IMG/VR virus record: IMGVR_UViG_3300032236_001129
Coordinates: 1-64,000 of that record
Source of the DNA: a virus
Direction: 5' to 3' (one strand)
DNA length: 64,000 nt
This document shows positions 18,661 to 42,233 of the stretch, in pieces; position 1 is the stretch's first letter, and each line of letters opens with the position of its first letter. The position numbers and the translations under genes were made by a program. The notes under the pieces are model-generated. The model was given only the letters and a program-made list of their open reading frames with translations. It searched no databases and was not told where the DNA came from.

Positions 18661-19191
18661 TTACTAGGTGAGCGCATCACGCAAGTAGGAGCAGGGGGGG
18701 CTACGGCTCTCCCTGCCTCTATCTATGTCCATAGTTACTATGGGCGTAGATGGGGTGATACCTCTGCCGTAATACTCAAGTGGAAGTCGCAAGTTGAGAT
18801 GAAAGTATGTATCTGCTATCCCCCAGAGTAATCCACGCCCGTTGATTCGGTGTCCTGCTACGAATAGGCTCTCAACTCTCTATGATGGGAGTTGGGAGTC
18901 TATTCAGGCTACTGTCGCCACGCATCTATTATCATTGTGAGTACCACCAAGCCTACGGCTAGGCGGTGGGTCTGCTATCAGGTATAAGACTAGACGGCTA
19001 GTCTGCTATCAGGTATGAGGCAGGCGGGTATCAGGTAGCGGGTGGAAGAGACATAGAACCTAGCGTACTGACCTATGTGTCTATGTGGCTACTCTCTATG
19101 TCTCTCTCACTCTCTATCTACACAGAGAGCAATCGGTATCCCCGCCGATTTTCGCCCAACATAAACAATACCCACCACGAAAGGTATCTCA
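18661..19191 (+). other. Non-coding structured region with TCTGCTATCAGGTAT repeats
   Basis: About 530 bases without a convincing gene. Holds two direct copies of GTCTGCTATCAGGTAT (near 18970 and 18999) and a partial third (GGGTATCAGGTAG). Hairpins include AGACTAG-acgg-CTAGTCT, CCACCAAGCC-tac-GGCTAGGCGGTGG and CTCTCAACTC...GAGTTGGGAG, followed by a CTCTCT-rich stretch. The end (CCCCGCC ... GAAAGG) is a leader also found before later genes. It could be a structured RNA, a replication origin or a regulatory leader; nothing in it decides which. Confidence 0.5.
19156..19167 (+). repeat. 12-nt motif copy 1
   Basis: CCAACATAAACA, in the leader of the 39-residue zinc protein. First of thirteen copies of YCAACAYAAACA. 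Confidence 0.8.
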
Positions 19192-19311
19192 ATGAACGCA
19201 TCTATCTATTGTGCTAAGTGTAAAGACAAGCACGATATCAAAGGCGCTGAGGTTATGAACCTCGTAACCATCGGCTCCTCGTATGTATGTAAGTCCTGTA
19301 AGGCTAAGTAA
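19192..19311 (+). CDS. 39-residue zinc ribbon
   Basis: MNASIYCAKCKDKHDIKGAE..., with CKSC near the end: two CxxC knuckles. GAAAGG precedes the ATG. The stop TAA is immediately followed by the ATG of the next gene. Unknown role. Confidence 0.65.
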   Translation: MNASIYCAKCKDKHDIKGAEVMNLVTIGSSYVCKSCKAK

Positions 19312-19524
19312 ATGTGTGGCTGCGAATTAGGCGTTATGTGTGCCAAGCACAAGGCTTTACTCCCCAAGGTATGCGCTGTCCCCGACTGTACCTCTACCAA
19401 ACTCGTCTACTCCGGTACTGATGCCTTTATGCTAGGCGTGCCTACCGAGGTCTATTGCTATACCTGCGCCAATATCTTCTCGTTTATTACCTCATACGAG
19501 ACACGCTACGAGATAGCCAAGTAA
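19312..19524 (+). CDS. 70-residue Cys-rich protein
   Basis: Starts MCGCELGVMCAKHKALLP; later VCAVPDCTSTKLVYSG and CYTCANIFSF. Eight Cys and one His would fit two zinc sites. It abuts the previous gene with no gap. Unknown function. Confidence 0.65.
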   Translation: MCGCELGVMCAKHKALLPKVCAVPDCTSTKLVYSGTDAFMLGVPTEVYCYTCANIFSFITSYETRYEIAK

Positions 19525-19561
19525 GTTTCCCCGCCCAATCCCTCACAGAAAGGCAATACCT

Positions 19562-19858
19562 ATGTCCGAAGAACGCTTCATAGAAGAAACCGATCCGCAT
19601 ACCCACCTATGGACACCATACGAACAGGAGCGACCACACCTACTCAACTTCTGTAGTCTGTGCCTTCGCCGTACCTATGTGATGGCTGAACTCACCTACT
19701 CCAATCAAGATGGCGAGACTGTCCATAGTGATTTGCCTCTGGAGCGTGAGTTTCTCCACGATGCCCTCAATGAGTGGCTAGACAAAGGCAACAAGACCGG
19801 CTATTTCTATGTGGGTAATCTCCTCCAACTCACACGAGATATGGGTAACGATATCTAA
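19562..19858 (+). CDS. 98-residue hypothetical protein
   Basis: Acidic protein starting MSEERFIEETDPHTHLW, with a possible metal site (HLLNFCSLCLRRTY) and a helical C-terminus. GAAAGG precedes the ATG, and the leader shares CCCCGCC with neighbouring genes. Not recognised. Confidence 0.65.
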   Translation: MSEERFIEETDPHTHLWTPYEQERPHLLNFCSLCLRRTYVMAELTYSNQDGETVHSDLPLEREFLHDALNEWLDKGNKTGYFYVGNLLQLTRDMGNDI

Positions 19859-19896
19859 CCAAGTTTCCCCGCCAATTTTCTGCCGGCGAGGGCGTT

Positions 19897-19908
19897 CCAA
19901 CACAAACA
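19897..19908 (+). repeat. 12-nt motif copy 2
   Basis: CCAACACAAACA, intergenic, in the leader of the 42-residue gene. Confidence 0.8.
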
Positions 19909-19936
19909 CACCCACCACCACCAAGAAAGGACAACA

Positions 19937-20065
19937 ATGGACAAAGAACTCGCTCGTGTTATTGACGAGCATCTGAACAAGCTCGAAGAGTTTTGTATTA
20001 CAACTCTTGCTGAGATTGGCACTATCCGACTACAAGTACACCTCCTTAAAAACCTCACAAAATAG
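19937..20065 (+). CDS. 42-residue helical protein
   Basis: MDKELARVIDEHLNKLEEF followed by a second amphipathic helix; GAAAGGACAACA precedes the ATG. Looks like a short coiled coil. Unknown. Confidence 0.55.
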   Translation: MDKELARVIDEHLNKLEEFCITTLAEIGTIRLQVHLLKNLTK

Positions 20066-20164
20066 AGTTAACTGAGATGTCTACGGCTATGTAGACACGG
20101 GCGGGTTGAGAGTTAGAGGGAACTCTCCCCGCCCCTTCTTTTACCCTCAATAGAAAGGCAACAA

Positions 20165-20392
20165 ATGCAAACCCTATCAGTACAAGCAACGATGACTAAA
20201 CAGGTCATCACACAGCACGACAAGCACCTTCTATGTCTAGCCATAATCAAACAGATAATGCTGATGCAAGTGAAAGAGAGCACCTATGTTCCGCAAGTAT
20301 CCCGACAAAGACAAGACACGAGTACAGCGTATACAGGAATTGCGTCGCTCGAACGCAGCGACTTCCTTACCCAACAAAAAGCGTTGGTCTAA
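20165..20392 (+). CDS. Possible 75-residue protein (frame uncertain)
   Basis: Has a good ribosome site (GAAAGGCAACAA-ATG), but the last 107 bases overlap the basic 47-residue gene below in another frame, and the composition there is unnatural. Either the real gene differs from the reading given here, or the two overlap by chance. Kept as doubtful. Confidence 0.35.
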   Translation: MQTLSVQATMTKQVITQHDKHLLCLAIIKQIMLMQVKESTYVPQVSRQRQDTSTAYTGIASLERSDFLTQQKALV

Positions 20393-20429
20393 GCGTATGC
20401 GAAACCTTTGGAAGAAGGAGTTAGAGTGA
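20286..20429 (+). CDS. 47-residue very basic protein
   Basis: MFRKYPDKDKTRVQRIQELR, then PNKKRWSKRMRNLWKKELE. Strongly positive and helical, so nucleic-acid binding is plausible. Its stop overlaps the GTG of the next gene (GTGA), as in other pairs here. Confidence 0.6.
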   Translation: MFRKYPDKDKTRVQRIQELRRSNAATSLPNKKRWSKRMRNLWKKELE

Positions 20430-20569
20430 GCGATTGGCTTACCGAAGGCGTTAAGACAGAAGCAGGAAAAGAATTGATTATCTATATGAATCAACACTTT
20501 GGCTCAGCAGTATGGGGAAGAGTCATTGACGGAGTAAAAGCCATAGAGAAGGAGTTAAACAATGACTGA
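20426..20569 (+). CDS. 47-residue hypothetical protein
   Basis: GTG start with AAGGAG six bases upstream; MSDWLTEGVKTEAGKELIIY..., ends with an acidic helix. Overlaps both neighbours by a few bases. Unknown. Confidence 0.65.
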   Translation: MSDWLTEGVKTEAGKELIIYMNQHFGSAVWGRVIDGVKAIEKELNND

Positions 20570-20822
20570 TATAACAATCGTTACAATCACAGAAGGCACA
20601 GTCCTTCAGGGTGATGGCGGTGCGTCTACCGGCGCAATCGTGCTCCAACACAAACAAGCCGACAACTATACCGATGTAATCCTCTGCGATGCCTCGGTGG
20701 GTAGCCCTTATGACCCATATGTTGTATGGACTTACAATCACGAACGAGGCACTTGCTCTCGTGGTGAGTACTTTAACAACCTTGACTATGCCAAATCAGC
20801 CTATGAGGAGCGTGAGTGGTAA
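20562..20822 (+). CDS. 86-residue hypothetical protein
   Basis: AAGGAG precedes the ATG. A strand-rich, Gly/Asp/Tyr protein (MTDITIVTITEGTVLQGDGG...). Carries motif copy 3 inside its coding sequence. Unknown. Confidence 0.65.
   Translation: MTDITIVTITEGTVLQGDGGASTGAIVLQHKQADNYTDVILCDASVGSPYDPYVVWTYNHERGTCSRGEYFNNLDYAKSAYEEREW
20645..20656 (+). repeat. 12-nt motif copy 3
   Basis: CCAACACAAACA inside the 86-residue gene; the motif's first base is codon position 3 (reads LQHKQ). Confidence 0.8.
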
Positions 20823-21109
20823 TGGCTAAAAAGAAGAAAATAAAATGGGATGGCCCAGAGAATAGTTTCATTGGTAAAACCGTTAACTGGACTGATGAAG
20901 ACTTTCGTAATCACGGATATATGACCGTAAATGAGTTCGTTGAGAAGTTCTCCATTGGACTCAAAGCATATCTTGTCAATAATTGGAAGAGTTTTGATCG
21001 AGACCACCTATTACATCCCGAGGACTTGACTTCCAATATGCTCTGCTATGCCGAATCTGTATACGAGGTAATTAGCATCTTTGGGGTAGGTAGTACAAAT
21101 GAGGATTAA
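20822..21109 (+). CDS. 95-residue hypothetical protein
   Basis: MAKKKKIKWDGPENSF..., starting in the TAATG of the previous gene; the GTG at 20816 lacks support. Mixed charged protein with a helical centre (VNEFVEKFSIGLKAYL). Unknown. Confidence 0.65.
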   Translation: MAKKKKIKWDGPENSFIGKTVNWTDEDFRNHGYMTVNEFVEKFSIGLKAYLVNNWKSFDRDHLLHPEDLTSNMLCYAESVYEVISIFGVGSTNED

Positions 21110-21329
21110 CAAAAATCTGCCTGTATATGTAGCATCCGATGAATTGCTACAAGACTTAAATGATTTAGGATACAAGTCTATTGAGTTAGAAGATTTAATA
21201 GACTTTTTAGAAGAGGATGAGTCATACATACTAGATATCTATATCGGTATGGTAATGCACGACGAGTTGGCTTTTATGAGTTCGGCTGCTAGTAGAGCAT
21301 TACAAGCGTTAGATGCTCGTCCAACATAA
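21099..21329 (+). CDS. 76-residue acidic protein
   Basis: MRINKNLPVYVASDELLQDL... with many Asp/Glu in the centre (ELEDLIDFLEEDESY). Starts inside the previous gene. Its stop codon TAA lies within motif copy 4 (CCAACATAAACA). Unknown. Confidence 0.65.
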   Translation: MRINKNLPVYVASDELLQDLNDLGYKSIELEDLIDFLEEDESYILDIYIGMVMHDELAFMSSAASRALQALDARPT

Positions 21330-21435
21330 ACATTCCCCGTTCGCCTATACCACCAGGACACACACCAAACAATACACTCATAAGGATAAGCACGGTAGGT
21401 GGCTGCCTGTTCAGCCTAATATCCTCTGCTTGTAA
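21313..21435 (+). CDS. Possible 40-residue basic protein
   Basis: An overlapping frame encoding MLVQHKHSPFAYTTRTHTKQ and then HKDKHGRWLPVQPN. The second part looks protein-like, but the ribosome site is poor and the start is inside the previous gene. Doubtful. Confidence 0.3.
   Translation: MLVQHKHSPFAYTTRTHTKQYTHKDKHGRWLPVQPNILCL
21321..21332 (+). repeat. 12-nt motif copy 4
   Basis: CCAACATAAACA; codon-aligned with the stop TAA of the 76-residue gene embedded in it. Confidence 0.8.
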
Positions 21436-21858
21436 TTCCCCACAGTTGTTGAGCGCAGTGGCGTATAAGATAGGTTCGTAGAACTTACTCACTTACAGAA
21501 CTGTGGATAAGGTAATCCCAAAAACGAGTAAAGGTCCTTTATGTATTTCGTTTGGTGTGTGCTCTGGTTGTATAGACAACCAGTATGAGGACACACGACG
21601 AATATGGAGCCACTCGGTGCGATAGGCGCTAAGACTTCGAACGCTTTACTCTGACGAGTTCGCTATTAGATGTATTCGACCCCCTAGTTCAAGCCCTTTA
21701 CACTCTCGCAAACTTCGTGGGTTGCGAACTGTTCTGGTTGCCCATAACGTTAGATAGTGTGGTCCTTCAAACCGGCAGTATGGGGGCTGTCTAACAGCCC
21801 CCATCTGTATTAAGATTCCCACGTCCGTGGGATGTACCTGCTAAAAGGAGGTACGGCA
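21436..21858 (+). ncRNA. Long structured non-coding leader
   Basis: About 420 bases with no gene but many stems. GTGTGTG...GGTTGT-atag-ACAACC...CACAC is a nested hairpin at about 21551-21598. CGAAC...GTTCG lies near 21637-21662. An 11-bp stem is at 21780-21804, and TCCCAC-gtcc-GTGGGA near 21812-21827. It ends in AAAGGAGGTACGGCA before the ATG at 21859. It could be a trans-acting RNA, a cis-regulatory leader or a processed RNA. The stems are visible; the class is not recognised. Confidence 0.45.
21780..21804 (+). terminator. Strong stem-loop in the 21.5-21.9 kb leader
   Basis: ATGGGGGCTGT-cta-ACAGCCCCCAT, perfectly paired. The following bases (CTGTATT) give only a weak U-run, so it may attenuate rather than fully terminate transcription into the 67-residue gene. 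Confidence 0.55.
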
Positions 21859-22062
21859 ATGGCGAAGTCCGCCTTGCATTACTGTAACAACTGTGGTCGG
21901 CGTGTCCAACCACATCAAGCCAAGTTGGAAATCAAAGTGCGTCACGGCACAGATTTCTATCACGAAACTTGGGAAGGGTGCTATGAATCCACACGTGAAA
22001 GTGGTAAGCACGTTATGACTGAGTTAGAGACAGAGTTAGTTAAGATAACTCCAATCTACTAG
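21859..22062 (+). CDS. 67-residue zinc-ribbon-like protein
   Basis: MAKSALHYCNNCGRRVQPHQ..., with EIKVRHGTDFYHETWEGC later, giving Cys2-His-Cys ligands similar to phage zinc fingers. A strong AAGGAGG nine bases before the ATG excludes the earlier in-frame ATG at 21832. Unknown role. Confidence 0.7.
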   Translation: MAKSALHYCNNCGRRVQPHQAKLEIKVRHGTDFYHETWEGCYESTRESGKHVMTELETELVKITPIY

Positions 22063-22393
22063 AGTCAGTTGGTCTGGCGAGACCTGAGGTAAAACACGAC
22101 TCCTGAGCAATGAGACTAAACTGCTCACCTAACATTGGTACGACACTTGTGAAGTCGGGAGCAACGAGTTGCGAAATTCTTCCTCTTCGTCTACACCAAA
22201 TGTCCTGAGTATGACAACTAAAACTGCTCACCGAGTAGGCGCTACCGTCCAATAGAGAAATCCCGAACCGCCAACAATCCCAAAGTATGATTTATTTCAG
22301 AAAGTGGAGGAGCGTACCGGCTGCCGTAAGGTAAGCGGTCAGAGAGTACCAAGGGACATTGGGGCGCCTACTCTCCATCTAGAAAGGATAGTA
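22063..22393 (+). ncRNA. Non-coding leader with repeated ACTAAA(A)CTGCTCACC
   Basis: About 330 bases without a gene. Two direct copies of ACTAAACTGCTCACC / ACTAAAACTGCTCACC lie near 22114 and 22210. GAGCA-atgagactaaac-TGCTC can form a hairpin. Near 22277 is AAAGTATGA, followed about 80 bases later by GGGACATTGGGGCGCC; the leader at 25.2-25.4 kb has AAAGTATGA and GAGGCATTGGGGGCAAGCC in the same order. Shared elements suggest a related RNA element; the function is unknown. Confidence 0.4.
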
Positions 22394-22567
22394 ATGATAA
22401 CCCTCATTAAAAGAAACACCACCGAGAAACTTCTATTCCTCTTAGAAGCACAGCTGTTTCACGGCTGCACTCGCAAAGAAGCATTGATGCTATGGAATGA
22501 TGGCATCGATACGCTGTACGACAGCGTCTCAACACAAACAATCCACACCGGAAGGATGGACAAGTAA
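22394..22567 (+). CDS. 57-residue hypothetical protein
   Basis: MITLIKRNTTEKLLFLLEAQ..., small helical protein. GAAAGGATAGTA precedes the ATG; the upstream GTG at 22304 has no support. Contains motif copy 5. Abuts the next gene. Confidence 0.65.
   Translation: MITLIKRNTTEKLLFLLEAQLFHGCTRKEALMLWNDGIDTLYDSVSTQTIHTGRMDK
22529..22540 (+). repeat. 12-nt motif copy 5
   Basis: TCAACACAAACA within the 57-residue gene, in codon frame 1 (STQT). Confidence 0.8.
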
Positions 22568-22855
22568 ATGGCAAAAGGAAAAGGCGGAGCAAAAAGCGGT
22601 GGTCGCAACGACAATCGCCCTAATGGCAAGGCATTCAAAAAGGATCCCGGCCCTGCTCAAACACCAAAGACCAACTTCACACATATCAACGGACGCAGTC
22701 CTGAAAACAATGCTAAGCGTGAAGCGTGGAAAGCAAAAGGTGGTCGTTGGAACCACAAATCAATCCCTCATTGGAAGACTGGCAAAGTGTATGTTCCTAC
22801 AGCACTCACACCAGCCTTTGACCCTGAGAAGTTAGAGGCAGCCATTAATGGCTGA
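22568..22855 (+). CDS. 95-residue basic Gly/Asn/Lys-rich protein
   Basis: Starts MAKGKGGAKSGGRNDNRPNG; disordered N-terminus, then a Trp/Lys-rich patch (REAWKAKGGRWNHKSIPHW) that may bind nucleic acid. Follows the previous stop without a gap and overlaps the next start. Unknown. Confidence 0.65.
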   Translation: MAKGKGGAKSGGRNDNRPNGKAFKKDPGPAQTPKTNFTHINGRSPENNAKREAWKAKGGRWNHKSIPHWKTGKVYVPTALTPAFDPEKLEAAING

Positions 22856-23153
22856 GGTTCTCAAAGTCTATTCTCTTGACTATTTAAAAGAGAAACATTA
22901 TTCCGATGACACAACCGAGGATGCCACTCGTCTAGAGTGTGCTGGTCTTGTTATCGGTATGCTCGATCGTTTAGCAAAAAGCAAGCGCTTGCACCTTACC
23001 GAAGATGAGCTTCAGAGTTTGAAAAGCGCATTAGTTTATGCAACGATTGGGCAAACGCCAGTTGGCGATGCCTATATGAATGACACACTCATTGTGGTAG
23101 ACAGCCAAGAAAATGAATACGTTGCAGGAATCCCTGTAACTAACCCAGTATAA
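22848..23153 (+). CDS. 101-residue hypothetical protein
   Basis: A helical protein (LECAGLVIGMLDRLAKSKRL..., TEDELQSLKSALVY) ending in a strand region (DTLIVVDSQENEYVAG). Overlaps the previous gene by eight bases. Unknown. Confidence 0.65.
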   Translation: MAEVLKVYSLDYLKEKHYSDDTTEDATRLECAGLVIGMLDRLAKSKRLHLTEDELQSLKSALVYATIGQTPVGDAYMNDTLIVVDSQENEYVAGIPVTNPV

Positions 23154-23165
23154 GGAGGGCCAGCG

Positions 23166-23621
23166 ATGGCTACAACATCAACCACATCGTTAACATTCAA
23201 GCGCTCAGTTATCTTAAAGAAACTAGAGACTCGTGTTAATGAAATGAAGAAAGAGATAGACGCATGGGTAAAAGAAAACGACTCTCTATCTGATAGACAA
23301 AAAGCGTGGGACAAAAAAGCCCGTGCTTGGTTTAAAAAGAATGCAGCGTCATTGATTAATGACAATACATCCGTATACCATAACAGCCATTACCACAATA
23401 ACAATAGTTTCCGTTTTACTGTGGAAGCTAGCCCAGATAAAGTAATTGCTGCTATCGGTGAGTATCCAGAGCAAGATTGTCGTCCTGCTTGGGACCGTGC
23501 TGAGTATCGTGGTGTAAGCCCTATTGAAGAACTAGAAGCTAACATCGCTGCATTCAAAGCCGCAGAGGAAGATGAGATTAAGGTCTCAATCAAGAACAAT
23601 ATCTTCCGCTATATTAAGTAA
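23166..23621 (+). CDS. 151-residue protein with N-terminal coiled coil
   Basis: AAGGAGGG before the ATG. Residues 10-60 form a charged coiled coil (LKKLETRVNEMKKEIDAW...); the middle is His/Asn/Tyr-rich (SVYHNSHYHNNNSF); the C-terminal part is mixed. Unknown. Confidence 0.7.
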   Translation: MATTSTTSLTFKRSVILKKLETRVNEMKKEIDAWVKENDSLSDRQKAWDKKARAWFKKNAASLINDNTSVYHNSHYHNNNSFRFTVEASPDKVIAAIGEYPEQDCRPAWDRAEYRGVSPIEELEANIAAFKAAEEDEIKVSIKNNIFRYIK

Positions 23622-23633
23622 CCAACACAAACA
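23622..23633 (+). repeat. 12-nt motif copy 6
   Basis: CCAACACAAACA directly after the TAA of the 151-residue gene and just before a terminator-like hairpin. Confidence 0.85.
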
Positions 23634-23638
23634 AACCC

Positions 23639-23665
23639 GGCCCCGTCAATCGGCGGGGCCTTTCT
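23639..23665 (+). terminator. Terminator-like hairpin
   Basis: GGCCCCG-tcaatcg-GCGGGGCC then TTTCT. A strong stem with a short U-run, between the 151- and 109-residue genes; probably partial termination. Confidence 0.65.
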
Positions 23666-23680
23666 CATAAGGAGGGCAGT

Positions 23681-24010
23681 ATGCGCAAGCTGCTGTTACG
23701 TACTAAAAAGGTGGCTGAACAAATCAATCGCCTTATGTTTGAGGAATATCAAGATAACCAATTCGAAGAAAGTCAAACTATGCGCTCATATAGCGCAGGT
23801 ATCATTGACGGCCTTGCATTGGCTTTAACTGTGATATCAGACACACCGGAGAAACTAGCTCCTTCATTCCCTCTAAGCATCTCGTTCTATGAGGAGGATG
23901 ATGAGTCTTGTACCATCGCTGCTAAGCAAGCACGTGTAGAAGCTATGCGTGAAAAGGTATTTGACTTACAGAATCAACAGAAGTTATCATTATTCTATGA
24001 GGAGGTGTAA
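23681..24010 (+). CDS. 109-residue hypothetical protein
   Basis: AAGGAGGG precedes the ATG. Helical, slightly acidic (MRKLLLRTKKVAEQINRLMF...; MREKVFDLQNQQKLSLFYEE). Unknown. Two bases separate it from the next ATG. Confidence 0.7.
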   Translation: MRKLLLRTKKVAEQINRLMFEEYQDNQFEESQTMRSYSAGIIDGLALALTVISDTPEKLAPSFPLSISFYEEDDESCTIAAKQARVEAMREKVFDLQNQQKLSLFYEEV

Positions 24011-24012
24011 CT

Positions 24013-24747
24013 ATGGCTGTTGACTGGCAATGGGCTAATGACTTCTTATCTAGAGGTCGTAAAAAGTATGAACGCCCCTTGTATGACCGAGGTCTTCGCA
24101 TTTGGAAAGAAAACAAATGGGATCCCGATAGCAATATCCACGTAGGTTGGAAGTATGGTGGCAGTGGCAATGCATTTGTTATCTATCACAAAGATGGCAC
24201 TACAACTATTCAAGGCCATCAACAACCTACTCATTGGGGTGGCAGTTGGCTTCCATTGCGTAGCTATTCTGTTCGCTTTACTATCCAACGCTATGCCGGT
24301 ATTCAGGTATCACAACGCAATTGGCAATATCATCTTACAGAAGATGATGCCCCGCTTACTCCACCAAAGATACAAGGTTGTAGAACTTGTAGACAAACTG
24401 GAAAAGTAGATGCTTGGTGTAACAGTCACAATTGTTACGATGGCGAAAAGGGTCCAGATGGCAAGATGCATTGTGAAACACATCCTGACGCACAGTTTCT
24501 AGGTGTTCAGTATCAATATCGTTGGCACGCATTACCTTGTGAGCATGGAAATCTTGATGGTCATATGGTGCCTAAAGCACAGACTTGCTATAGCTGTGGG
24601 GGCAATAAGAAGCGTGACTATGGCAGCAAGTATCAAACCACAATCTGGGATGGTTCCCCACTCAGACTGCGGGATGGAAAGATAATCAAATCAGCAGCAT
24701 CACTACTAGAAAGGATGGTGGCAGACTATGTCGACCCTGTCGGCTAA
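24013..24747 (+). CDS. 244-residue Cys/His-rich zinc protein
   Basis: GAGGAGG precedes the ATG. The N-terminal half is Trp/Tyr/Arg-rich, strand-type (PTHWGGSWLPLRSYSVRF). From about residue 120 there are repeated knuckles: GCRTCRQTGKVDAWC, HNCYDGEKG, HALPCEHGN and QTCYSCGGNKKRDYG. The CxxCxxTG and CxxCGG spacings recall DnaJ-type zinc fingers. Probably an RNA- or protein-binding zinc protein; the family is unknown. Confidence 0.7.
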   Translation: MAVDWQWANDFLSRGRKKYERPLYDRGLRIWKENKWDPDSNIHVGWKYGGSGNAFVIYHKDGTTTIQGHQQPTHWGGSWLPLRSYSVRFTIQRYAGIQVSQRNWQYHLTEDDAPLTPPKIQGCRTCRQTGKVDAWCNSHNCYDGEKGPDGKMHCETHPDAQFLGVQYQYRWHALPCEHGNLDGHMVPKAQTCYSCGGNKKRDYGSKYQTTIWDGSPLRLRDGKIIKSAASLLERMVADYVDPVG

Positions 24748-25222
24748 GTATGACCCACAAGCAGTACCAGTAAATGAATCAGGTAATATGACAGAAATCA
24801 ATCAGATTGTATTGTATGTAGGCTCCGGCTTACTACCACAGAATCTATTGCGTATGTCAACACAAACATCGGCTCTTCGTGATGCCTTTGTAGCCAACAT
24901 CGCCAGAACCAGTATGGTTGAGGGCGCACTCGCTACGTTCCTTGGCAAGCTCGTTACAATTGAAAATGTAATGACTGCTGAAGAAATTGCAGTATGTGAA
25001 TATGCCGCAACTTTGGCGTATATGACAAACAACATTGATCTCGTTAAAGAGATTCTGATGCGTGTACCACCTAAATCAGTTAACAGCTATCTTCAAACGT
25101 TATACACAGCTGTTGCAGTTCGTAAATGGTCATCAGAAATATTCAATGATGCGCTTGCTGAAGCTTCTACTCAGTCTCTCTATCGATGGGAAGCTGAGAA
25201 AGCTAACGTTATCAACATCTAG
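24728..25222 (+). CDS. 164-residue helical protein
   Basis: Starts inside the previous gene. An all-helical, Ala/Leu/Thr-rich protein (VEGALATFLGKLVTIENVMT, then AATLAYMTNNIDLVKEILMR), possibly helical-repeat-like. Carries motif copy 7. Not recognised. Confidence 0.65.
   Translation: MSTLSAKYDPQAVPVNESGNMTEINQIVLYVGSGLLPQNLLRMSTQTSALRDAFVANIARTSMVEGALATFLGKLVTIENVMTAEEIAVCEYAATLAYMTNNIDLVKEILMRVPPKSVNSYLQTLYTAVAVRKWSSEIFNDALAEASTQSLYRWEAEKANVINI
24857..24868 (+). repeat. 12-nt motif copy 7
   Basis: TCAACACAAACA in codon frame 1 (STQT) of the 164-residue gene. Confidence 0.8.
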
Positions 25223-25438
25223 TTTTGATAGTCCATATGGCTATCAAATGGAATGGGTTGGCTAAGCCTACCGCTGGTTAGACTGGCGTGATGCAAGAGA
25301 ACGAGTACGAAGCGAACAGCGGCACAGTTGCGTGTAACAACCGGTGCTGGTCTGCCTTCTAAAGTATGAGCTAGATCAAATAGTCCCTGCGAGGCATTGG
25401 GGGCAAGCCAATCCAATCCAATAAAGAAAGGAAACATC
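25223..25438 (+). ncRNA. Structured leader before the 86-residue gene
   Basis: Opens with the near-palindrome at 25224-25248 (TTTGATAG...CTATCAAA) just after a stop codon. Later it holds TTCTAAAGTATGAG and GAGGCATTGGGGGCAAGCC, shared with the leader at 22.1-22.4 kb, and ends AATAAAGAAAGG. The elements shared with the other leader suggest an RNA element used more than once in this operon. Confidence 0.4.
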
Positions 25439-25699
25439 ATGTGCCACGAATGTGGAGATGAAGAAGATGACATTCAGTTTAGTTCTGAGTTCATCGATGC
25501 TTTACAAGAACTACCTCCTGAAGAAAAGGAAAACGTTCTAGATGATATGCAAGAGTCCATCGCATATGTGATGGAGAAAGCAGAACAGCAAGGGTTCTTG
25601 TTCGAGTTGATTACATCTTGGCCAAGAACAAAGGTTGCTATGTATGAGGCAGCCGTAGTCATGGAGAAAAATATTCTCGATGATGGACACACACACTAG
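25439..25699 (+). CDS. 86-residue acidic helical protein
   Basis: Starts MCHECGDEEDDIQFSS: a CxxC at the very N-terminus, then three acidic helices (LQELPPEEKENVLDDMQ, AYVMEKAEQQGF). GAAAGG precedes the ATG. It lies directly upstream of the MoxR-type ATPase and could be a partner protein; this is inference from position only. Confidence 0.6.
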   Translation: MCHECGDEEDDIQFSSEFIDALQELPPEEKENVLDDMQESIAYVMEKAEQQGFLFELITSWPRTKVAMYEAAVVMEKNILDDGHTH

Positions 25700-25710
25700 A
25701 AAGGCACAAC

Positions 25711-27120
25711 ATGGAGATAGCAGTATTTACCGAGTCTTACGAACCAGGTATGGGTGCAAAGCGACGTCAAATCCTTATGGCACCATATGAGGGAGGCGTA
25801 AAAATCTGGTCACGGTTAACCGATGGAACTAAGGGCCCACACAATAAGTGGGAAGATACTTCATTGGCTGAGCTAAGTGACTTGGTTAGTAGCTCAGAGC
25901 AATTGACAAGGACCCCTGTTGGTGTATATGTTACGGCAGCAGATGAGAAGGCAATTGCAGACAAGGGTTACTCTCCTGTCTTAGGTACCAAGGCATGCAA
26001 TCAACATGCTAAGGCTGACCCAAATACAGATACAACTCCGTTCGCAGAAAAGCTCTGTGAACTCCACGATCAAATCCTAGTGGGGGATGATTCATTGGAT
26101 ACATATGTAATCGATAACCGACGTCAAGCTGGCGCTACAGTTCCATTGGTAATGCCAGTCTCAACACAAACAAACGAGGATGCTATGCCAACTGTTAAGC
26201 AATCTTCTGGTGGCAAAATTCTCAGCGTCAATCTTGCAACAGTTCCACGCAAGGAGCTAGCTGAGCGATATGTTCACCGTAAGATCTGGGGTCAAGAAGA
26301 CTTTGCAGTCTATGACCACGCACGTGCTAAAGGTACTAACATTCTTATCTATGGCCCAACTGGTCCTGGTAAGACTACATCTGTTGAAGCGTGGGCTGCT
26401 GAACGTGGCTTGCGCCTAGCAACAATCTCTGGTAATGCGTCTATGGAACCAAGCCAAATGACCGGCAAGTTCGTCTCTGATGGCGAAGGTGCGTTCATGT
26501 GGATTGACGGTCCCGTAACTGACGTAGTACGTAACGGTGGTGTTCTTCTGCTTGATGAGGTTAACTTCATCAATCCTAAGATCTATACCAACCTATATTC
26601 ATTGACCGATGGTCGTCGTAGCATTACTTTGCTTGACCATCATGGCGAGACTATTGAGGCTCACAAAGACCTCACTATCTTCGCTACTATGAATCCAGAT
26701 TACATCGGCACCACACCGCTCAACTTTGCGTTCCGCAATCGCTTCGACATTCAAATCCCATGGGATTATGACGATGCCGTTGAGGAGAAGTTGATTAGTT
26801 CTAAGGCTCTTCGTATCCTTATGAAGCAACTTCGCACAGAGGCTGCCAAGGGTCAATACGAGACTCCAATCTCTACCAACATGGGTATGGAGTTCATCGA
26901 CCTTATCGACTCTCTCGGCTATGAGTTTGCAGCCGAGAACTTCATTGCTCACTTCAGTACAGATGAGCAAGCCAGCGTACGCATGGTCTTCCAGACTCAT
27001 GAGCACAATGTCAAGTCTGACTTCGGTCTCGAAGCCAACATAAACATTGACCAACCTGCTGATAAGAGTCTTGATGATCGCCTGCAAGAATGGGCACAAC
27101 AAGTATCCGTTAACGTCTAA
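25711..27120 (+). CDS. MoxR/CbbQ-type AAA+ ATPase
   Basis: A 469-residue protein. Residues 1-150 form an unusual N-terminal domain with a WGR-like pattern (KIWSRLTDGTKGPHNKWED). The AAA+ core follows: Walker A GPTGPGKT (215-222), Walker B VLLLDEVN (278-285), sensor-1 TMNPDYIGT (Asn328) and arginines FRNRF (342-344). The order of these motifs and the TNLYSLTDG region fit MoxR/NirQ-type chaperone ATPases. Such ATPases work with VWA-domain partners to remodel or metallate target proteins; the VWA gene comes next, ten bases away. The substrate in this phage is unknown. Confidence 0.88.
   Translation: MEIAVFTESYEPGMGAKRRQILMAPYEGGVKIWSRLTDGTKGPHNKWEDTSLAELSDLVSSSEQLTRTPVGVYVTAADEKAIADKGYSPVLGTKACNQHAKADPNTDTTPFAEKLCELHDQILVGDDSLDTYVIDNRRQAGATVPLVMPVSTQTNEDAMPTVKQSSGGKILSVNLATVPRKELAERYVHRKIWGQEDFAVYDHARAKGTNILIYGPTGPGKTTSVEAWAAERGLRLATISGNASMEPSQMTGKFVSDGEGAFMWIDGPVTDVVRNGGVLLLDEVNFINPKIYTNLYSLTDGRRSITLLDHHGETIEAHKDLTIFATMNPDYIGTTPLNFAFRNRFDIQIPWDYDDAVEEKLISSKALRILMKQLRTEAAKGQYETPISTNMGMEFIDLIDSLGYEFAAENFIAHFSTDEQASVRMVFQTHEHNVKSDFGLEANINIDQPADKSLDDRLQEWAQQVSVNV
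26161..26172 (+). repeat. 12-nt motif copy 8
   Basis: TCAACACAAACA in codon frame 1 (STQT) of the MoxR-type gene. Confidence 0.8.
27035..27046 (+). repeat. 12-nt motif copy 9
   Basis: CCAACATAAACA in codon frame 2 (ANIN) near the 3' end of the MoxR-type gene. Confidence 0.8.
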
Positions 27121-27129
27121 GGAGGCTAA

Positions 27130-29016
27130 ATGCTTATAGATGAATTAGATGATTCTCCGTGGGGTGGAGATGCTCGTTCTGAGCAAGACCAAGAGCGCAT
27201 AGTTCAACTAGGTGCTTTATGTCGTGTGTATGAACAAGCTGACCGAGTTCTCACTGGTGACCCAGTCATAGTCAACGTCATGCCAGATGGCCCTGCGCCA
27301 GCGTGGTCTGACGGCGCTGCTATCTATATCAATCAGCAAGAAATTACTGATATGGATTTAGAAACGCTAACTCAAGTCACCGGCCTGAACTATCATGAGC
27401 TAGCCCATCACTTCTATACTCCTCGCAAGGGTACAGAGCTAATCAAGTGGGTACTAGCCAACAACTATATGGAATCCGCCAATATGCTCGAGGACCAGCG
27501 CATCGAGACTTTGCTATGCGCTCGTTATCCAGCTGTTGCTCCATATCTCACAGGTACAGTAGCTAGATGGCTTGGTGAGACTCCTGAGGAACGACAGGGT
27601 GTGTATGCTCTCATCCGTGGTCGCAGGTATCTGCCAGTAGAACTACGTGAAGCATATCGTGATGAGTTTGCATTCCCGGAACTCATACCTGCTATCGTAG
27701 ACATCGTAGACAAGTATCGTCTGCTTGCATTCCCACGGGACTACAAGACAGCACAAGTACTTATCCAACGATTCAATGACGAAGTACTCAAACCAATCCG
27801 TGGTGACTTTCCACAGCTATCTGGTGGTCCCAATGGATGTGGTCATCGTGATCCAACAATCAAGGGTCGTCCTGAACCTGGCAAGATGCAAGAGAGAGAT
27901 GCTCAGCGTGCCGGCAATATGGGCAAGCCAGAGTCTGTCTATATGCCAATTCCTAAAGCCAAGGATGATGCCAACACAAACAGCACGCCAGACAAAAGCA
28001 ATCCATCTACAATGCCTGCTCCTAACAGTGCAGCGGAAGCGCTTGCTATACGTGAGGCGATTCAACAATCTAATCAACCACCATCTCTAGAACCAGGCGA
28101 AGGCCATCATGAGAGCAAGGGTGGTGTTCCTGATAATCTCCAGAGTATCTTGGATAACACTATGGAGGATATCTACAACAACAAAGCAGTTCAACAGGAT
28201 ATCAAAGCCAAGCAGCGTGTAATCGTTGGTGGCGATGGTAAGTTCGATGCGTCTACTAAACATGGCAAATTCGACCTCACCGATGTCCCTACTGACACCA
28301 TCATCATGTATCGTGCGTTTGCCAAAGAGTTGGAGCGCCTGCGTGATGAGTGTGAGCCTGGCTGGAACAAGGGTGTACCTAGCGGTAAGCTCAACGTTCA
28401 GCGTGTAATCAATGGATGTGAGATCGACGAAGCCTTTGACCGCTGGGAAGAAGGTAATGATGGCGCCGACGTGGAAGCCGTTATTCTAGTAGATCGTTCC
28501 GGATCCATGGGCTCTGACAACAATGACCGCAATGCTTCTCTTGCATGCTGGACTATCAAGCGTGCGTTGGAAGCCATCGATGCTCCAGTTACCGTGTATG
28601 CATTCGATGACAGGTCAGAGGTTGCGTATACCCGCTCCGAGCGTGCCCACAAAACACGCTTCAAATTTATCTATGGCAGCGGTGGTACAAATCCGTATAG
28701 CTCGTTAATCGCAGCCGAGCAGCTGCTTATGTCTTCTCGTAAGAAGAATAAGATGCTGTTTATCATCACCGATGGTGCCTTCAATCATGAGAAAAATGAT
28801 GAAGTCATCCAACGTATTAGCCGTCGAGGTATCTTGACTGCTATGACTCTTATCATGCGTGATAGAGACTATGAGTACTACAGCAATCGTGGCGAGAGCG
28901 ATAAGACTTTCCGACACGATGCTGAAGTATATGGCCGTATCAATTCAGCCCGTGACTTAGTGCCGTTTGCTAAGGCTGTAGTAATGGGTGCAATCAAGAA
29001 GCGCAGAAGCGCCTAA
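27130..29016 (+). CDS. VWA-domain protein with N-terminal HExxH motif
   Basis: A 628-residue protein, partner of the MoxR-type ATPase. The N-terminal domain has YHELAHHFYTPRKG: His89-Glu90-x2-His93, the zinc metallopeptidase motif, with NMLEDQRIE (118-126) as a possible third-ligand helix. Residues 270-335 are a low-complexity linker. The C-terminal VWA domain has a complete MIDAS: DRSGS (455-459), GGT (Thr520) and TDGAF (Asp548). This resembles CobT-like VWA partners, but the HExxH region is unusual. AAGGAGG precedes the ATG. It may be a metal-dependent peptidase or a metal-binding remodelling factor powered by the ATPase; activity is inferred. Confidence 0.85.
   Translation: MLIDELDDSPWGGDARSEQDQERIVQLGALCRVYEQADRVLTGDPVIVNVMPDGPAPAWSDGAAIYINQQEITDMDLETLTQVTGLNYHELAHHFYTPRKGTELIKWVLANNYMESANMLEDQRIETLLCARYPAVAPYLTGTVARWLGETPEERQGVYALIRGRRYLPVELREAYRDEFAFPELIPAIVDIVDKYRLLAFPRDYKTAQVLIQRFNDEVLKPIRGDFPQLSGGPNGCGHRDPTIKGRPEPGKMQERDAQRAGNMGKPESVYMPIPKAKDDANTNSTPDKSNPSTMPAPNSAAEALAIREAIQQSNQPPSLEPGEGHHESKGGVPDNLQSILDNTMEDIYNNKAVQQDIKAKQRVIVGGDGKFDASTKHGKFDLTDVPTDTIIMYRAFAKELERLRDECEPGWNKGVPSGKLNVQRVINGCEIDEAFDRWEEGNDGADVEAVILVDRSGSMGSDNNDRNASLACWTIKRALEAIDAPVTVYAFDDRSEVAYTRSERAHKTRFKFIYGSGGTNPYSSLIAAEQLLMSSRKKNKMLFIITDGAFNHEKNDEVIQRISRRGILTAMTLIMRDRDYEYYSNRGESDKTFRHDAEVYGRINSARDLVPFAKAVVMGAIKKRRSA
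27971..27982 (+). repeat. 12-nt motif copy 10
   Basis: CCAACACAAACA in codon frame 2 (ANTN) within the linker of the VWA protein. Confidence 0.8.
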
Positions 29017-29028
29017 CCAACACAAACA
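29017..29028 (+). repeat. 12-nt motif copy 11
   Basis: CCAACACAAACA immediately after the VWA gene's TAA and running into the AAGGAGG of the next gene. Confidence 0.85.
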
Positions 29029-29038
29029 AGGAGGGTAT

Positions 29039-29230
29039 ATGTACACGATTTATGACAGCATCACGGAGTCTTTAGTTGAAGTCTTTAATGACTATGAGTC
29101 CGCACAAATGTTCCTACTACATCAGTCAGATAACCTAGCCGATGGTGGGGCTAATCTGTCTATTGAATACATTTCTACAGTACAAGAGTGGGCTATGGAT
29201 AATGGCATCAAATTGGAGGCGGTAATGTAA
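29039..29230 (+). CDS. 63-residue hypothetical protein
   Basis: MYTIYDSITESLVEVFNDYE...; AAGGAGGG precedes the ATG, so the earlier in-frame start at 28988 is rejected. Mixed helix-strand, acidic. Stop overlaps the next ATG. Unknown. Confidence 0.65.
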   Translation: MYTIYDSITESLVEVFNDYESAQMFLLHQSDNLADGGANLSIEYISTVQEWAMDNGIKLEAVM

Positions 29231-29550
29231 TGGGAGAAGTTATTAACTTCGGAGACTATCTAGCAGCAAAGCAAGCCAACATGACAGTCGGTCAGCTACG
29301 TGGCTCAAGAGAGTTGATGGATGAGCTTCTATCCGAGCTAACTCCTGAGCAACTAGCTAGTGACTATATTCTCTATGTGCCAGAGTCTGTGGACGATGTC
29401 TGGCCTAGAGAGTATCTCTATATCATGCCTGAAGATCTTGGCAATCCCGGCTGTAGTGAGTGCCAGCATCTTAACTGGGAGGTTGTAGAGGATGGCTATC
29501 AAGCCAGATGCAAAGACTGCAAACTAAACGCTTGGAGTGCACCATGGTAA
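29230..29550 (+). CDS. 106-residue protein with C-terminal zinc ribbon
   Basis: MGEVINFGDYLAAKQANMTV..., an acidic helical part (ELLSELTPEQLASDYI), then GCSECQHLNWEVV and ARCKDCKLNAW: two CxxC knuckles near residues 74-100. Translationally coupled to both neighbours. Unknown. Confidence 0.7.
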   Translation: MGEVINFGDYLAAKQANMTVGQLRGSRELMDELLSELTPEQLASDYILYVPESVDDVWPREYLYIMPEDLGNPGCSECQHLNWEVVEDGYQARCKDCKLNAWSAPW

Positions 29551-29993
29551 ATACATTTCTACCTTGGCCAGACATGAAACGAACAGCTAAATCCTTAGAC
29601 AACAAGAGACTTGGTAAGCAACGTGTAGAGGCGTTGCAAATTCTGAGGGCCAACTTGGGTCTAACTAAGGGATGGGTTAATCACCCGGCTGCTGTGATGT
29701 GGCGTGGTCACGAAGGTTATCTATATATGTACACAAATGCTATGTGTATAGAGTGGAGACAACGTGGCTATGAAGATAACGTACAAGCACGGCTGCAAGA
29801 GCTGTATGCAGAACATGACATACAAGGTTGGGACCCGCCATGGTGGTGGGGTAATGATGAGTTCCATTCATCACATCGTTCTAACCTAAAGCGTAAAGAT
29901 CCGATTTGGTATCGGTTTCGTGTACGCAAAGATATTCCGTACAAATGGCCTACACCTAGTATGTCATTCAGAACAACAGAAGGAAAAAAATAA
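29544..29993 (+). CDS. MSMEG_6728-family / pyrimidine-dimer glycosylase-like protein
   Basis: A 149-residue protein starting MVNTFLPWPDMKRTAKSLDN, then KRLGKQRVEALQILRAN, WVNHPAAVMWRGHEGYLYMY, PPWWWGNDEFHSSHRSNLKR. This is the pattern of an actinobacterial and phage family related to DenV-type pyrimidine-dimer DNA glycosylases. The early Thr and the Arg/Glu-rich helix could form the lyase site, so a role in repairing UV damage is possible. The start at 29544 overlaps the previous stop by seven bases. Confidence 0.75.
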   Translation: MVNTFLPWPDMKRTAKSLDNKRLGKQRVEALQILRANLGLTKGWVNHPAAVMWRGHEGYLYMYTNAMCIEWRQRGYEDNVQARLQELYAEHDIQGWDPPWWWGNDEFHSSHRSNLKRKDPIWYRFRVRKDIPYKWPTPSMSFRTTEGKK

Positions 29994-30190
29994 TGACCAT
30001 GTACAAAGTAACAATCCATGAACACAAGATCTACGATGCGTTCATTGAAGCACCAACACAGCAGCTGGCTATTGAAGAAGCTGAGAACCAAATTGTTGGT
30101 GAAGAAAATGCCAAGTGGCGTGAAGATTACAACGCTGGTTGGGCTGAAGTTGGCGAGGTTGAACTAGTAGAAGAGGAAGACTATGCCTAA
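29993..30190 (+). CDS. 65-residue acidic protein
   Basis: MTMYKVTIHEHKIYDAFIEA..., ends EVELVEEEDYA. A ferredoxin-like strand-helix-strand pattern is possible. Overlaps both neighbours. Unknown. Confidence 0.65.
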   Translation: MTMYKVTIHEHKIYDAFIEAPTQQLAIEEAENQIVGEENAKWREDYNAGWAEVGEVELVEEEDYA

Positions 30191-30716
30191 TTGGTGTGAC
30201 AACGCCATAATGATAAGAGGACAGAAAGATGAAGTACTCAAAGTAAAAGACTTTGTTACTGATGGTAACAATCCGTTTAGCTTTGAGAAAATCTATCCGT
30301 GTCCTCCTAAGTTAAGAAGTGAAAGCGCACCTAATAGAAACACACAAAGCTCTGAATTCAACACCAGTAAGTACGGGGCTAAAGATTGGTATGAATGGTG
30401 TGTTGATAACTGGGGTACTAAATGGGACTCATCTGAAACAGAGTTACTAACAGAACTGTTAGATGAAGACACATTACAAATAACCTGGAGCTACCAAACA
30501 GCTTGGGCTCCTCCCATCGGGGTATATGAGAAGCTGGCGGAGATGTTTCCCAACATAAACATTTTCGTTAACTTCGATGAATCCGGGATGGGATTCTCTG
30601 GTTGGAAATACTACAAGGATGGAGCTGTAGAGAAAGAAGAAGATTACGGCTCTTCCTACTACAGTATCAAGACCTTTATGGAACCAGATACTGATATATG
30701 GGATTGGTTAGATTAG
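30183..30716 (+). CDS. Api92-like / DUF1281-type protein
   Basis: A 177-residue protein with the family signature: MPNWCDNAIMIRG at the start, IYPCPPKL, then DWYEWCVDNWGTKWDS and the ITWSYQTAWAPPIGVYEKL region. This is the ferredoxin-like domain first seen in phage APSE Api92; its function is not established. It occurs on many plasmids and phages. Carries motif copy 12. Confidence 0.8.
   Translation: MPNWCDNAIMIRGQKDEVLKVKDFVTDGNNPFSFEKIYPCPPKLRSESAPNRNTQSSEFNTSKYGAKDWYEWCVDNWGTKWDSSETELLTELLDEDTLQITWSYQTAWAPPIGVYEKLAEMFPNINIFVNFDESGMGFSGWKYYKDGAVEKEEDYGSSYYSIKTFMEPDTDIWDWLD
30550..30561 (+). repeat. 12-nt motif copy 12
   Basis: CCAACATAAACA in codon frame 2 (PNIN) of the Api92-like gene. 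Confidence 0.8.
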
Positions 30717-30728
30717 AAATGGAGGATC

Positions 30729-30938
30729 ATGGCCAATGACAAGTTAACTACAAAACTACGAATACTCTATGAGGTAGATATTGCCAAGTGGCGTATTGAT
30801 GATCAAAACGAAATCGAGAACCGTGAGTGGTGTCTTTATGTGTATGACCGTAACCAAGAGCAATGGGTTGCAGTCAGTAGCTTAAACGCACCAGGCGAGG
30901 GAGCTTCGATTAGACATATTCACGTAGTAGAAGAGTAA
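30729..30938 (+). CDS. 69-residue hypothetical protein
   Basis: TGGAGGATC precedes the ATG. Strand-rich with aromatic residues (REWCLYVYDRNQEQWVAVSS). Unknown. Followed by a GC-rich hairpin. Confidence 0.65.
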   Translation: MANDKLTTKLRILYEVDIAKWRIDDQNEIENREWCLYVYDRNQEQWVAVSSLNAPGEGASIRHIHVVEE

Positions 30939-30957
30939 CCCCGGGCGCAATCCGGGG
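30939..30957 (+). terminator. GC-rich hairpin
   Basis: CCCCGG-gcgcaat-CCGGGG right after the 69-residue gene's stop. It has no U-run, so it is a pause or processing site rather than a clear terminator. About 80 bases of leader follow before the next gene. Confidence 0.5.
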
Positions 30958-31038
30958 TACTCGGCTAAATGGTGCAAACTCTGTCGTACTTAGAGCTAGC
31001 ATTAACAAGTATACCCTAGACACTAGAAAGGAGATCCA

Positions 31039-31278
31039 GTGTTTGAATTCGCTAACATGCGATTAAAAGATAAAAACATAAAGAAACTGGTCTCTGCTCT
31101 AGAGGAAGCCGGTCTGGACGTCTCAATGACGCCAGGCAAGCATCACATTAAGGTGGTCAATAGTGACACTAAACAGGTGGTATTCTTTGGACCTCAGTCC
31201 TTAGGAGACTTTAGAGCGGGGAAAAATATACTCAGAGACCTCAAGAAGGTGGGCTTTGAGTCAAACATCAAACTATAG
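31039..31278 (+). CDS. HicA-like small dsRBD-fold protein
   Basis: A 79-residue protein with a GTG start after AAAGGAG. Pattern: KKLVSALEEAGLDVSMTPGK, HHIKVVNSDTKQVVFF, NILRDLKKVGF. This is the helix-strand-strand-strand-helix order of HicA-type mRNA interferases, with GKHH at the catalytic-His position. No HicB antitoxin is next to it, so it may be an RNA-binding protein rather than a toxin. Confidence 0.55.
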   Translation: MFEFANMRLKDKNIKKLVSALEEAGLDVSMTPGKHHIKVVNSDTKQVVFFGPQSLGDFRAGKNILRDLKKVGFESNIKL

Positions 31279-31286
31279 GAGGAAGC

Positions 31287-31565
31287 ATGGCTAAGAAAGT
31301 AGATGCTACATTCAGTGTAGAAATCTGTAAGAACACGGAAAAAGGTGGTGCGTGGTTAGCTACATACACCATTACAGAAGATGGTGTGGAGAAGGGCTAT
31401 GTCAATGAAGCATGGTCTAACGCATCAGCTGCTAAACGATGGATTAAGTCCAAGGTTGTAGAACATACGCCACGTAAGTCCATCAAGCTTGAGATCACAA
31501 CCAAGGACTTAAATGACAAACCAACATGTATCAAGGGTCAACTAACATATAAAGTGGAGGCATAA
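31287..31565 (+). CDS. 92-residue basic hypothetical protein
   Basis: AGGAGGAAGC precedes the ATG. Strand-rich N-terminal half (DATFSVEICKNTEKGGAWLA), then a Lys-rich helix. Unknown. Confidence 0.65.
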   Translation: MAKKVDATFSVEICKNTEKGGAWLATYTITEDGVEKGYVNEAWSNASAAKRWIKSKVVEHTPRKSIKLEITTKDLNDKPTCIKGQLTYKVEA

Positions 31566-31789
31566 TGAACGTCAACATGGAAACTGCAGAGAAGGTTGCT
31601 GAACTAGGCAACATGACTATGGATATAGCTGAAACACTATCTGATCTACTCGGTGACGACGAGCTTGATTATATGATGCTGTTAGACGCTCTTGCTATAC
31701 ATGGCTACACCATTGAGAAGGCCAAGGGTGAGAATATAGCCAGCATAGCCTACATGTACGGCCTCTCATTAGAAGCACAGGATGCATAA
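31565..31789 (+). CDS. 74-residue acidic helical protein
   Basis: MNVNMETAEKVAELGNMTMD..., then ETLSDLLGDDELDYMMLLDA. Start overlaps the previous stop (TAATG); abuts the next gene. Unknown. Confidence 0.65.
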   Translation: MNVNMETAEKVAELGNMTMDIAETLSDLLGDDELDYMMLLDALAIHGYTIEKAKGENIASIAYMYGLSLEAQDA

Positions 31790-32065
31790 ATGGATATGGA
31801 GACAATACTTCCCCGGACATGTGTAGTGTGTCATGGCCGGGGTTACATCTTCCAAGGTAACTCGGAAGACTGGGACGTTACAGCATGTGATGCATGTGAT
31901 GATGAAGCGGGAGCTAACTATCTCCTAGCTGCTGACGCATACGACGAAATCGAGATGAAGATGGAAGAAAATGATGAGGAGCTTACCAAATGCCAGGGTT
32001 GTGGTGAGCCGTCTATGCTTGATGAGTTAGACCTAGATCTGCTCTGCGACTATTGCGCTGAGTAA
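31790..32065 (+). CDS. 91-residue zinc protein, last gene of the rightward operon
   Basis: Two pairs of knuckles: TCVVCHGRGYIF / ACDACDDEAG and KCQGCGEPSML / LCDYCAE. CHGRGY recalls the DnaJ zinc-finger repeat. Strongly acidic between the sites. Ends just before the bidirectional terminator. Confidence 0.7.
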   Translation: MDMETILPRTCVVCHGRGYIFQGNSEDWDVTACDACDDEAGANYLLAADAYDEIEMKMEENDEELTKCQGCGEPSMLDELDLDLLCDYCAE

Positions 32066-32073
32066 TCTCACAG

Positions 32074-32114
32074 AAAAAGCCCCCCGGCCTTAATTGGTCG
32101 AGGGGCTTTTTTTG
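32074..32114 (+). terminator. Bidirectional terminator between convergent operons
   Basis: AAAAAGCCCC...GGGGCTTTTTTT: a stem AGCCCC/GGGGCT with an inner GGCC...GGTC part, an A-tract on one side and a T-tract on the other. It ends the rightward accessory operon and the leftward acidic-protein gene. Confidence 0.9.
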
Positions 32115-32124
32115 TTTGTGTTGG
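32113..32124 (-). repeat. 12-nt motif copy 13 (reverse orientation)
   Basis: The minus strand reads CCAACACAAACA, four bases after the stop of the leftward acidic-protein gene and before the terminator. It is the only copy on the minus strand and sits exactly where transcription direction changes, so it too is sense. Confidence 0.85.
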
Positions 32125-42067: not shown

Positions 42068-42233
42068 GGGAGGCCATCAAACTCTTAGAATGCCTCTCAT
42101 ACTTTGCATTTCTGCAATAAGGGCATAGTCCGTCATCGCTGTAGATTGCTTCCAGGGGAGTCATTGGATACCCACACTTCTTACATGGAAGAGTTCCATC
42201 ATAGATAGTTAGTGTTGAGACGTCCTCACCCAT
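42057..42233 (-). CDS. 58-residue zinc ribbon
   Basis: MGEDVSTLTIYDGTLPCKKC, then GYPMTPLEAIYSDDG and LCPYCRNAKYERH. Two CxxC knuckles 24 residues apart. The ATG at 42233 overlaps the previous stop (ATGGGTGA); the longer reading upstream is inside the HTH gene. Confidence 0.65.
   Translation of the reverse strand: MGEDVSTLTIYDGTLPCKKCGYPMTPLEAIYSDDGLCPYCRNAKYERHSKSLMASREE

Follow-up and report, generated by a model that had tools for sequence, protein, structure and literature searches.

The stoperators of cluster A mycobacteriophages such as L5 and Bxb1 are short asymmetric words that occur in tens of copies, follow the direction of transcription and differ in sequence between lineages (PMC3029335 and PMC6550527, in the parts available), and such words provide a precedent for polar stop sites (available parts of PMC9283540 and PMC6550527). 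The 64,000 nucleotides of viral DNA analyzed here (the window; positions 1–64,000 of the 100,206-base IMG/VR record IMGVR_UViG_3300032236_001129) carry another short polar word, the 12-mer YCAACAYAAACA, hereafter the element, in 13 exact copies, 12 on the plus strand and one on the minus strand. A preliminary description of the window had reported 13 exact matches with a single minus copy, and all were reproduced at the same coordinates. The plus copies all lie in one operon, and the ladder they form suggests a signal that controls transcription of its genes. Quite possibly, though not on balance probably, this ladder of identical polar 12-mers represents a novel type of control element in phages, which every transcription complex would re-read about every 1.2 kb within and between genes by means of a putative undescribed reader, and whose word is rewritten by lineage (YCAACAYAAACA, CCRACACAAACA, CCAAGGCAAACA; CTCCGGGT in cultured Gordonia phages) while the layout is kept. 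The operon, the copies (exact matches, placed relative to open reading frames, ORFs) and the adjoining terminator are:

18091–32065, plus strand: rightward operon, home of all plus copies, with small genes and AAA and VWA (CobS/CobT-like) genes (ORFs, Pfam, PHROGs)
19156–19167, plus strand: element as CCAACATAAACA, in a leader
19897–19908, plus strand: element as CCAACACAAACA, intergenic
20645–20656, plus strand: element within gene 20562–20822, phase 2
21321–21332, plus strand: element overlapping the stop codon of ORF 21099–21329
22529–22540, plus strand: element as TCAACACAAACA
23622–23633, plus strand: element immediately 3' of a stop codon and 5' of hairpin 23639–23660
24857–24868, plus strand: element within gene 24728–25222
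26161–26172, plus strand: element within the AAA gene, phase 0
27035–27046, plus strand: element within the AAA gene, phase 1
27971–27982, plus strand: element within the VWA gene linker, phase 1
29017–29028, plus strand: element immediately 3' of the VWA stop codon and 5' of AGGAGG
30550–30561, plus strand: element within gene 30183–30716, the final plus copy
32074–32111, no strand assigned: hairpin terminator common to both convergent operons
32113–32124, minus strand: sole opposite copy, in the 3' untranslated region 4 nt past the stop codon that ends the last leftward gene (32129–32284, minus strand) and before the shared hairpin

The chance expectation for these 13 matches has a mean of 0.01 (100 dinucleotide shuffles), and a search of the window allowing one mismatch added no copies (1.31 expected). 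The claimed absence elsewhere extends beyond the window, as the remaining 36 kb of the record hold neither further copies nor matches to the reversed pattern. All 13 copies are thus confined to 19.1–32.2 kb of the 100-kb record, and the other ~87% of the genome is nearly free of the element. Gaps between plus copies are 676–1,533 nt. Window copies differ at positions 1 and 7 only, the C/T variation already described. Among 148 copies found with a relaxed pattern in the window and records L009–L024, base 12 is other than A in ~4%, and the ~12 nt 3' of the element are C/A-rich. Comparison with cultured relatives indicates that the rightward operon is probably an early operon. Two of its stretches of about 500 nt (18661–19190 and 21330–21831) have strong stems and no convincing genes, and Rfam over 17–33 kb gave only tRNA above threshold.

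A scan with the VWA protein (27130–29016) gave 17 related contigs (30–81% identical) and a profile scan for more distant contigs gave 35 further records. The element is present in 40 of these 52 records: 16 of the 17 from the VWA scan, where the reversed pattern is absent from all 17, and 24 of the 35 from the profile scan, where the reversed pattern has three matches in total. Two of the 24 are sparse carriers (one copy in G047, three in G040), and the 11 profile-scan records without the element belong mostly to one clade. Much of the main clade has a dense ladder of 8–12 copies per locus, while L020, L022, L063, L064, L128 and others have 2–5.

The layout was compared in 42 loci, one per record and with variant words included. 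Sense copies follow each other at ~1.2-kb intervals, the 236 gaps between them having a median of 1,282 nt and a minimum of 502 nt, with 11% above 2 kb. Spacing is regular (p≤0.0023) in 20 of the 26 phages with at least six copies, L109 being one that is not (p=0.09); element positions are partly inherited among relatives, so the phages are not independent in these statistics. An opposite-strand copy, sense to the leftward operon, is found in 40 of the 42 loci; in 39 it lies beyond the last plus copy, ahead of the convergent terminator, at a distance of 884–5,669 nt that falls between 0.9 and 1.75 kb in 32 of the 39 (1,394 nt in L064). A strong hairpin follows within 45 nt 3' of the opposite copy in 37 of 41 cases, compared with 4% of 1,390 control windows. 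The operon spans of the relatives hold 253 exact copies in sense and one in antisense orientation, and 14 sense and no antisense one-mismatch forms. The preliminary description had pointed to the density on the opposite strand as a check of its claim, and the polarity withstands that check. Outside the operon, 28 copies were looked at in 14 records; 21 are sense, and six of these have a stop codon before them and a hairpin after them (hairpin scores 21–32), one of the six being a CCAAGG variant word.

This layout bears on antitermination, in which a factor loaded at each copy would sustain polymerase for 1–2 kb, so that a copy would be needed about every 1.2 kb. The complete lack of gaps below 500 nt, the similar interval that separates the opposite copy from the last plus copy, the long non-coding stretches of the operon and the sense polarity in any codon frame all agree with such a processivity site. 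The conserved copy before the leftward terminator would, however, send polymerase into the convergent operon, and there is neither an RNA structure nor a second box beside the copies, with boxB-like hairpins not enriched (3% vs 4%). We regard antitermination as rather improbable.

About half of the sense copies (145 of 278, 52%) lie within sense ORFs of 70 or more codons, in phases distributed 81/50/14. In the VWA linker, 12 phages have the element in phase 1 and L019 has it in phase 0, and in the AAA gene it is in phase 0 in most phages and in phase 1 in L019. Because copies within genes use every frame, and the frame differs between homologous linkers, these comparisons indicate that selection acts on the nucleotide sequence of the element. 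The window itself has phases 0, 1 and 2 and the stop-spanning copy at 21321, in line with the earlier account, and the argument made there that protein coding cannot explain the copies gains support from the frame switches between homologous linkers. Conservation in related phages, the other check named there, also holds, with copies persisting despite frame changes. The C content of the 12 nt downstream is 36% for coding and 32% for non-coding copies, and 22% for the operon. Three further explanations were discarded: a protein-level repeat by the frame switches, an intergenic start-associated sequence by the half of the copies that lie within genes, and a promoter, as the copy at 29017 abuts a ribosome site and no second conserved block is found within 40 nt.

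Diverged relatives use other words. In L019 (VWA 55% identical) CCGACACAAACA occurs three times in sense and once in opposite orientation, beside two copies of CCAACACAAACA, and L025 (VWA 30% identical) has nine copies of CCAAGGCAAACW, six of which form a sense ladder with its opposite copy; both keep the layout of the main element. Protein searches identified Gordonia and Brevibacterium phages as the cultured relatives, and the carriers of the element are uncultured viruses related to actinobacterial phages. The counterpart of the operon in four cultured Gordonia phages (ChisanaKitsune, Gray, GMA6 and UBSmoodge) holds a polar word, CTCCGGGT(G), that is unrelated to the element. CTCCGGGTG occurs 10 times in ChisanaKitsune and six times in GMA6, always on the rightward-operon strand and never on the other strand across both whole records (the reversed control gave 1 and 1 in ChisanaKitsune). 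Copies of the CCTCCGGGT type (CTCCGGGT) number 11 in UBSmoodge and 8 in Gray, all sense in the stretches read, and 9 in GMA6, with one further downstream. ChisanaKitsune, GMA6 and Gray each have one copy at nt 824–828 of the VWA gene (nt 842 in the window), a site that the protein alignment places in the same variable linker (columns 325–392) and not in one column. The order stop codon, element, hairpin is found for 5 of 39 CTCCGGGT copies in the Gordonia phages and for 4% of 780 controls. DalanDe and Cantare showed no comparable polar word in the stretches searched.

The clade without the element has polar words of its own (AAGCCATACCA and others), for which the ladder layout was not seen. 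L083, L092 and L095 of this clade have AAGTAACTT and AAGTTACTT, which at several sites form pairs ~23–34 nt apart and also occur within genes, and L069, L077, L078, L090 and L130 repeat AAGCCATACCAGAAGC words after the VWA region. Other repeated words were TTGGGAACTAA, promoter-like and present 19 times in L138 (159–11269), mostly followed by a GTTAGTGTCC-like word; TTGACACTGTAA, present six times in Cantare upstream of AT-rich stretches; and the near-palindromic TTCACACTGTGAA, present seven times on both strands of L103. A literature search found no description of the 12-mer element, and the 11-mer appeared in no phage context among the matches listed.

We tentatively favor the reading that each copy is a polar elongation-control site, which would resemble a stoperator in its effect while not being one by test. 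Nucleotide-level conservation, polarity with transcription, regular spacing, terminator adjacency and lineage-specific variants are its observed basis. RNA polymerase would meet each copy while moving through it in one direction, and a putative factor recognizing the 12-mer, in DNA or in nascent RNA, would halt or terminate elongation there. Rungs of ~1.2 kb might allow the rightward, probably early, operon to be shut down within ~1 kb of any polymerase position; where a copy follows a stop codon and precedes a terminator, it could serve as back-up for that terminator, and the copy at 32.1 kb could prevent leftward transcription from running into the rightward operon. Factor binding, the stop effect and its timing are the steps that we infer. 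The orientation along transcription and the closeness to terminators, seen in three separate settings, favor a role in elongation or at the ends of transcripts. A stop accounts for the copy ahead of the leftward terminator better than antitermination does, and the frame switches together with the lineage-specific words fit a co-evolving reader.

The preliminary description had left the choice between an RNA-level and a polar DNA signal. A strand-polar, transcription-oriented nucleotide signal conserved in relatives stands, while selection for RNA accessibility was not seen: in RNA folding, real copies were no more accessible than the same 12-mer placed at random sites of that operon (n=207, p=0.36), which we count in favor of the stop reading. 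Two copies in L064 form the loops of 18- and 17-bp hairpins, and in L020 the element lies in the loop of a hairpin. A general role as a hairpin part was rejected: an apical loop was found for 18 of 255 plus copies and 11 of 879 controls with composition uncontrolled, and a word-preserving control gave nothing. The suggested translation control is unlikely because about half of the copies are inside genes. Sequence analysis does not separate antitermination or stability from a polar DNA signal.

The hairpin loops of L064 and L020 would also suit an mRNA tag, through which a sequence-specific ribonuclease or RNA-binding protein could act on early mRNAs, for instance by cutting before 3' hairpins and at intervals, with a purpose like that of T4 RegB. 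Sense polarity, copies between stop codon and terminator hairpin and the near absence from the rest of the genome point the same way. Against this, selection for accessibility was not seen, a specificity of 12 nt would be long for a ribonuclease, and the nuclease that is co-distributed with the element is of the HNH type, a type that acts on DNA. An mRNA tag seems unlikely.

Full genomes, six with the element and two without it, were compared to find genes that track it. The genes for an HNH_3 nuclease and a 142-aa helical protein were each present in 6/6 of the former and 0/2 of the latter; a third (73490–74104) passes the screen from one query and fails it from another.

7235–7528, minus strand: small HNH_3 nuclease gene, 97 aa, candidate partner by co-distribution
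54101–54529, minus strand: gene for the 142-aa helical protein, next to DNA polymerase A, candidate partner by co-distribution

Of the element-bearing records that reach 79 kb or more, 17 of 18 have the HNH gene, and of the element-free records of at least 80 kb, 0 of 7 do (Fisher 1.7e-5, descent uncontrolled). The sole exception, G009, is a contig with an edge at the place of the HNH gene, near terminase, and the gene may be located near a genome end. Against the phage collection the nuclease had no match at 1e-3. For the helical protein the counts are 21 of 22 records with the element and 2 of 12 without it (Fisher 5e-6, descent uncontrolled). It is only ~26% identical between lineages with the same word, an argument against its being the direct reader. 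Its predicted fold is a good model (predicted local distance difference test score, pLDDT, 85) with no convincing fold match and no PDB sequence match. A variant word predicted for G048 and G051, which have the helical protein and no word, was not confirmed.

The co-distributed nuclease raises the option that the copies are strand-specific nick sites made by this small HNH protein, comparable to the single-strand interruptions of T5, phiKMV-like phages and tf. Its nearest solved sequence is, weakly, the HNH homing endonuclease 1u3e (E=0.42), and tf has 14 one-strand nicks at positions similar to those in relatives with variant words (available part of PMC3517423). If the copies form such an array, the HNH protein would be a candidate for making interruptions whose function that same part of PMC3517423 calls unknown. 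The tf sites are, however, all on one strand, whereas the element changes strand with the direction of transcription and includes the opposite copy and copies in structural genes. Nicking would leave the terminator adjacency unexplained, an HNH of this family was not found in Gordonia phages, and six shorter element-bearing records (53–76 kb) have no HNH match. We consider nick sites distinctly unlikely.

The element could alternatively be a stoperator proper, a binding site of a cluster A-type prophage repressor, a protein that combines an HTH with a stoperator domain. With such stoperators it shares an asymmetric word of about 13 bp (here a 12-mer) in many copies, orientation with transcription and clade-specific sequence. 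Reading Bxb1 with the published consensus gave 36 stoperators, 32 of them intergenic or at a gene edge and 4 within genes, compared with half of the element copies; their spacing has a coefficient of variation of 1.03, compared with the regular ladder seen here. The 13 copies are also confined to one part of the genome and not spread over both arms. Pfam scans of 66 window proteins detected no integrase or repressor family, with one HTH_17 protein at 42226–42549, and the available part of PMC5559632 reports that GMA6 lacks temperate features. Stoperators in the strict sense are very improbable.

Several observations weigh against a polar stop site. The regular spacing is easier to reconcile with antitermination or mRNA segmentation. 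Stop function does not need it, and Bxb1 stoperators are irregularly spaced. Plus copies are not enriched for downstream hairpins (3% of 278 vs 4% of controls), 7 of the 28 copies outside the operon are antisense, and the genome's second convergent junction, at about 48.1 kb, lacks a copy. The reader is putative, and neither the HNH nor the helical protein was found in six cultured phages.

Among other genes of the window, 15646–16212 (minus strand) has a proteasome-subunit match (PF00227, E 3.7e-7), which is unusual in a phage, and 29508–29993 (plus strand) encodes a pyrimidine dimer DNA glycosylase. The protein of 34370–35848 (minus strand) is like queuine tRNA-ribosyltransferase (phrog_887) and might take part in DNA modification of the DpdA kind. 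In a search for the host, the B12-dependent ribonucleotide reductase (32294–34327, minus strand) had no relative in genome contigs, and a relative of the VWA protein was found on one contig of a metagenome-assembled genome.

If the ladder acts on elongation, the whole operon would be regulated after initiation, in phages where no repressor was found. The ladder in cultured Gordonia phages makes this testable at once, and the element is a very specific metagenome marker for this phage group.

Known systems resemble the element in different respects. The sites of T4 RegB are likewise short words in early transcripts, reportedly cleaved at 4 nt (GGAG), compared with 12 nt here. RfaH/ops and lambda nut-type antitermination sites are, as generally described, short directional signals that the transcription complex recognizes, with one or a few sites near operon starts, whereas the element forms a ladder of up to 12. 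The interruptions of T5, phiKMV and tf/LUZ24 share with it about a dozen short polar words whose positions are kept while the word changes; in tf all sites are on the top strand despite converging transcription units (both from the available part of PMC3517423), whereas here strand follows transcription and terminators are adjoined. Finally, Bxb1 stoperators are mostly intergenic and irregular and come with a repressor, while the element copies are regularly spaced, half of them in genes and most of them in one operon, with no repressor in the proteins scanned.

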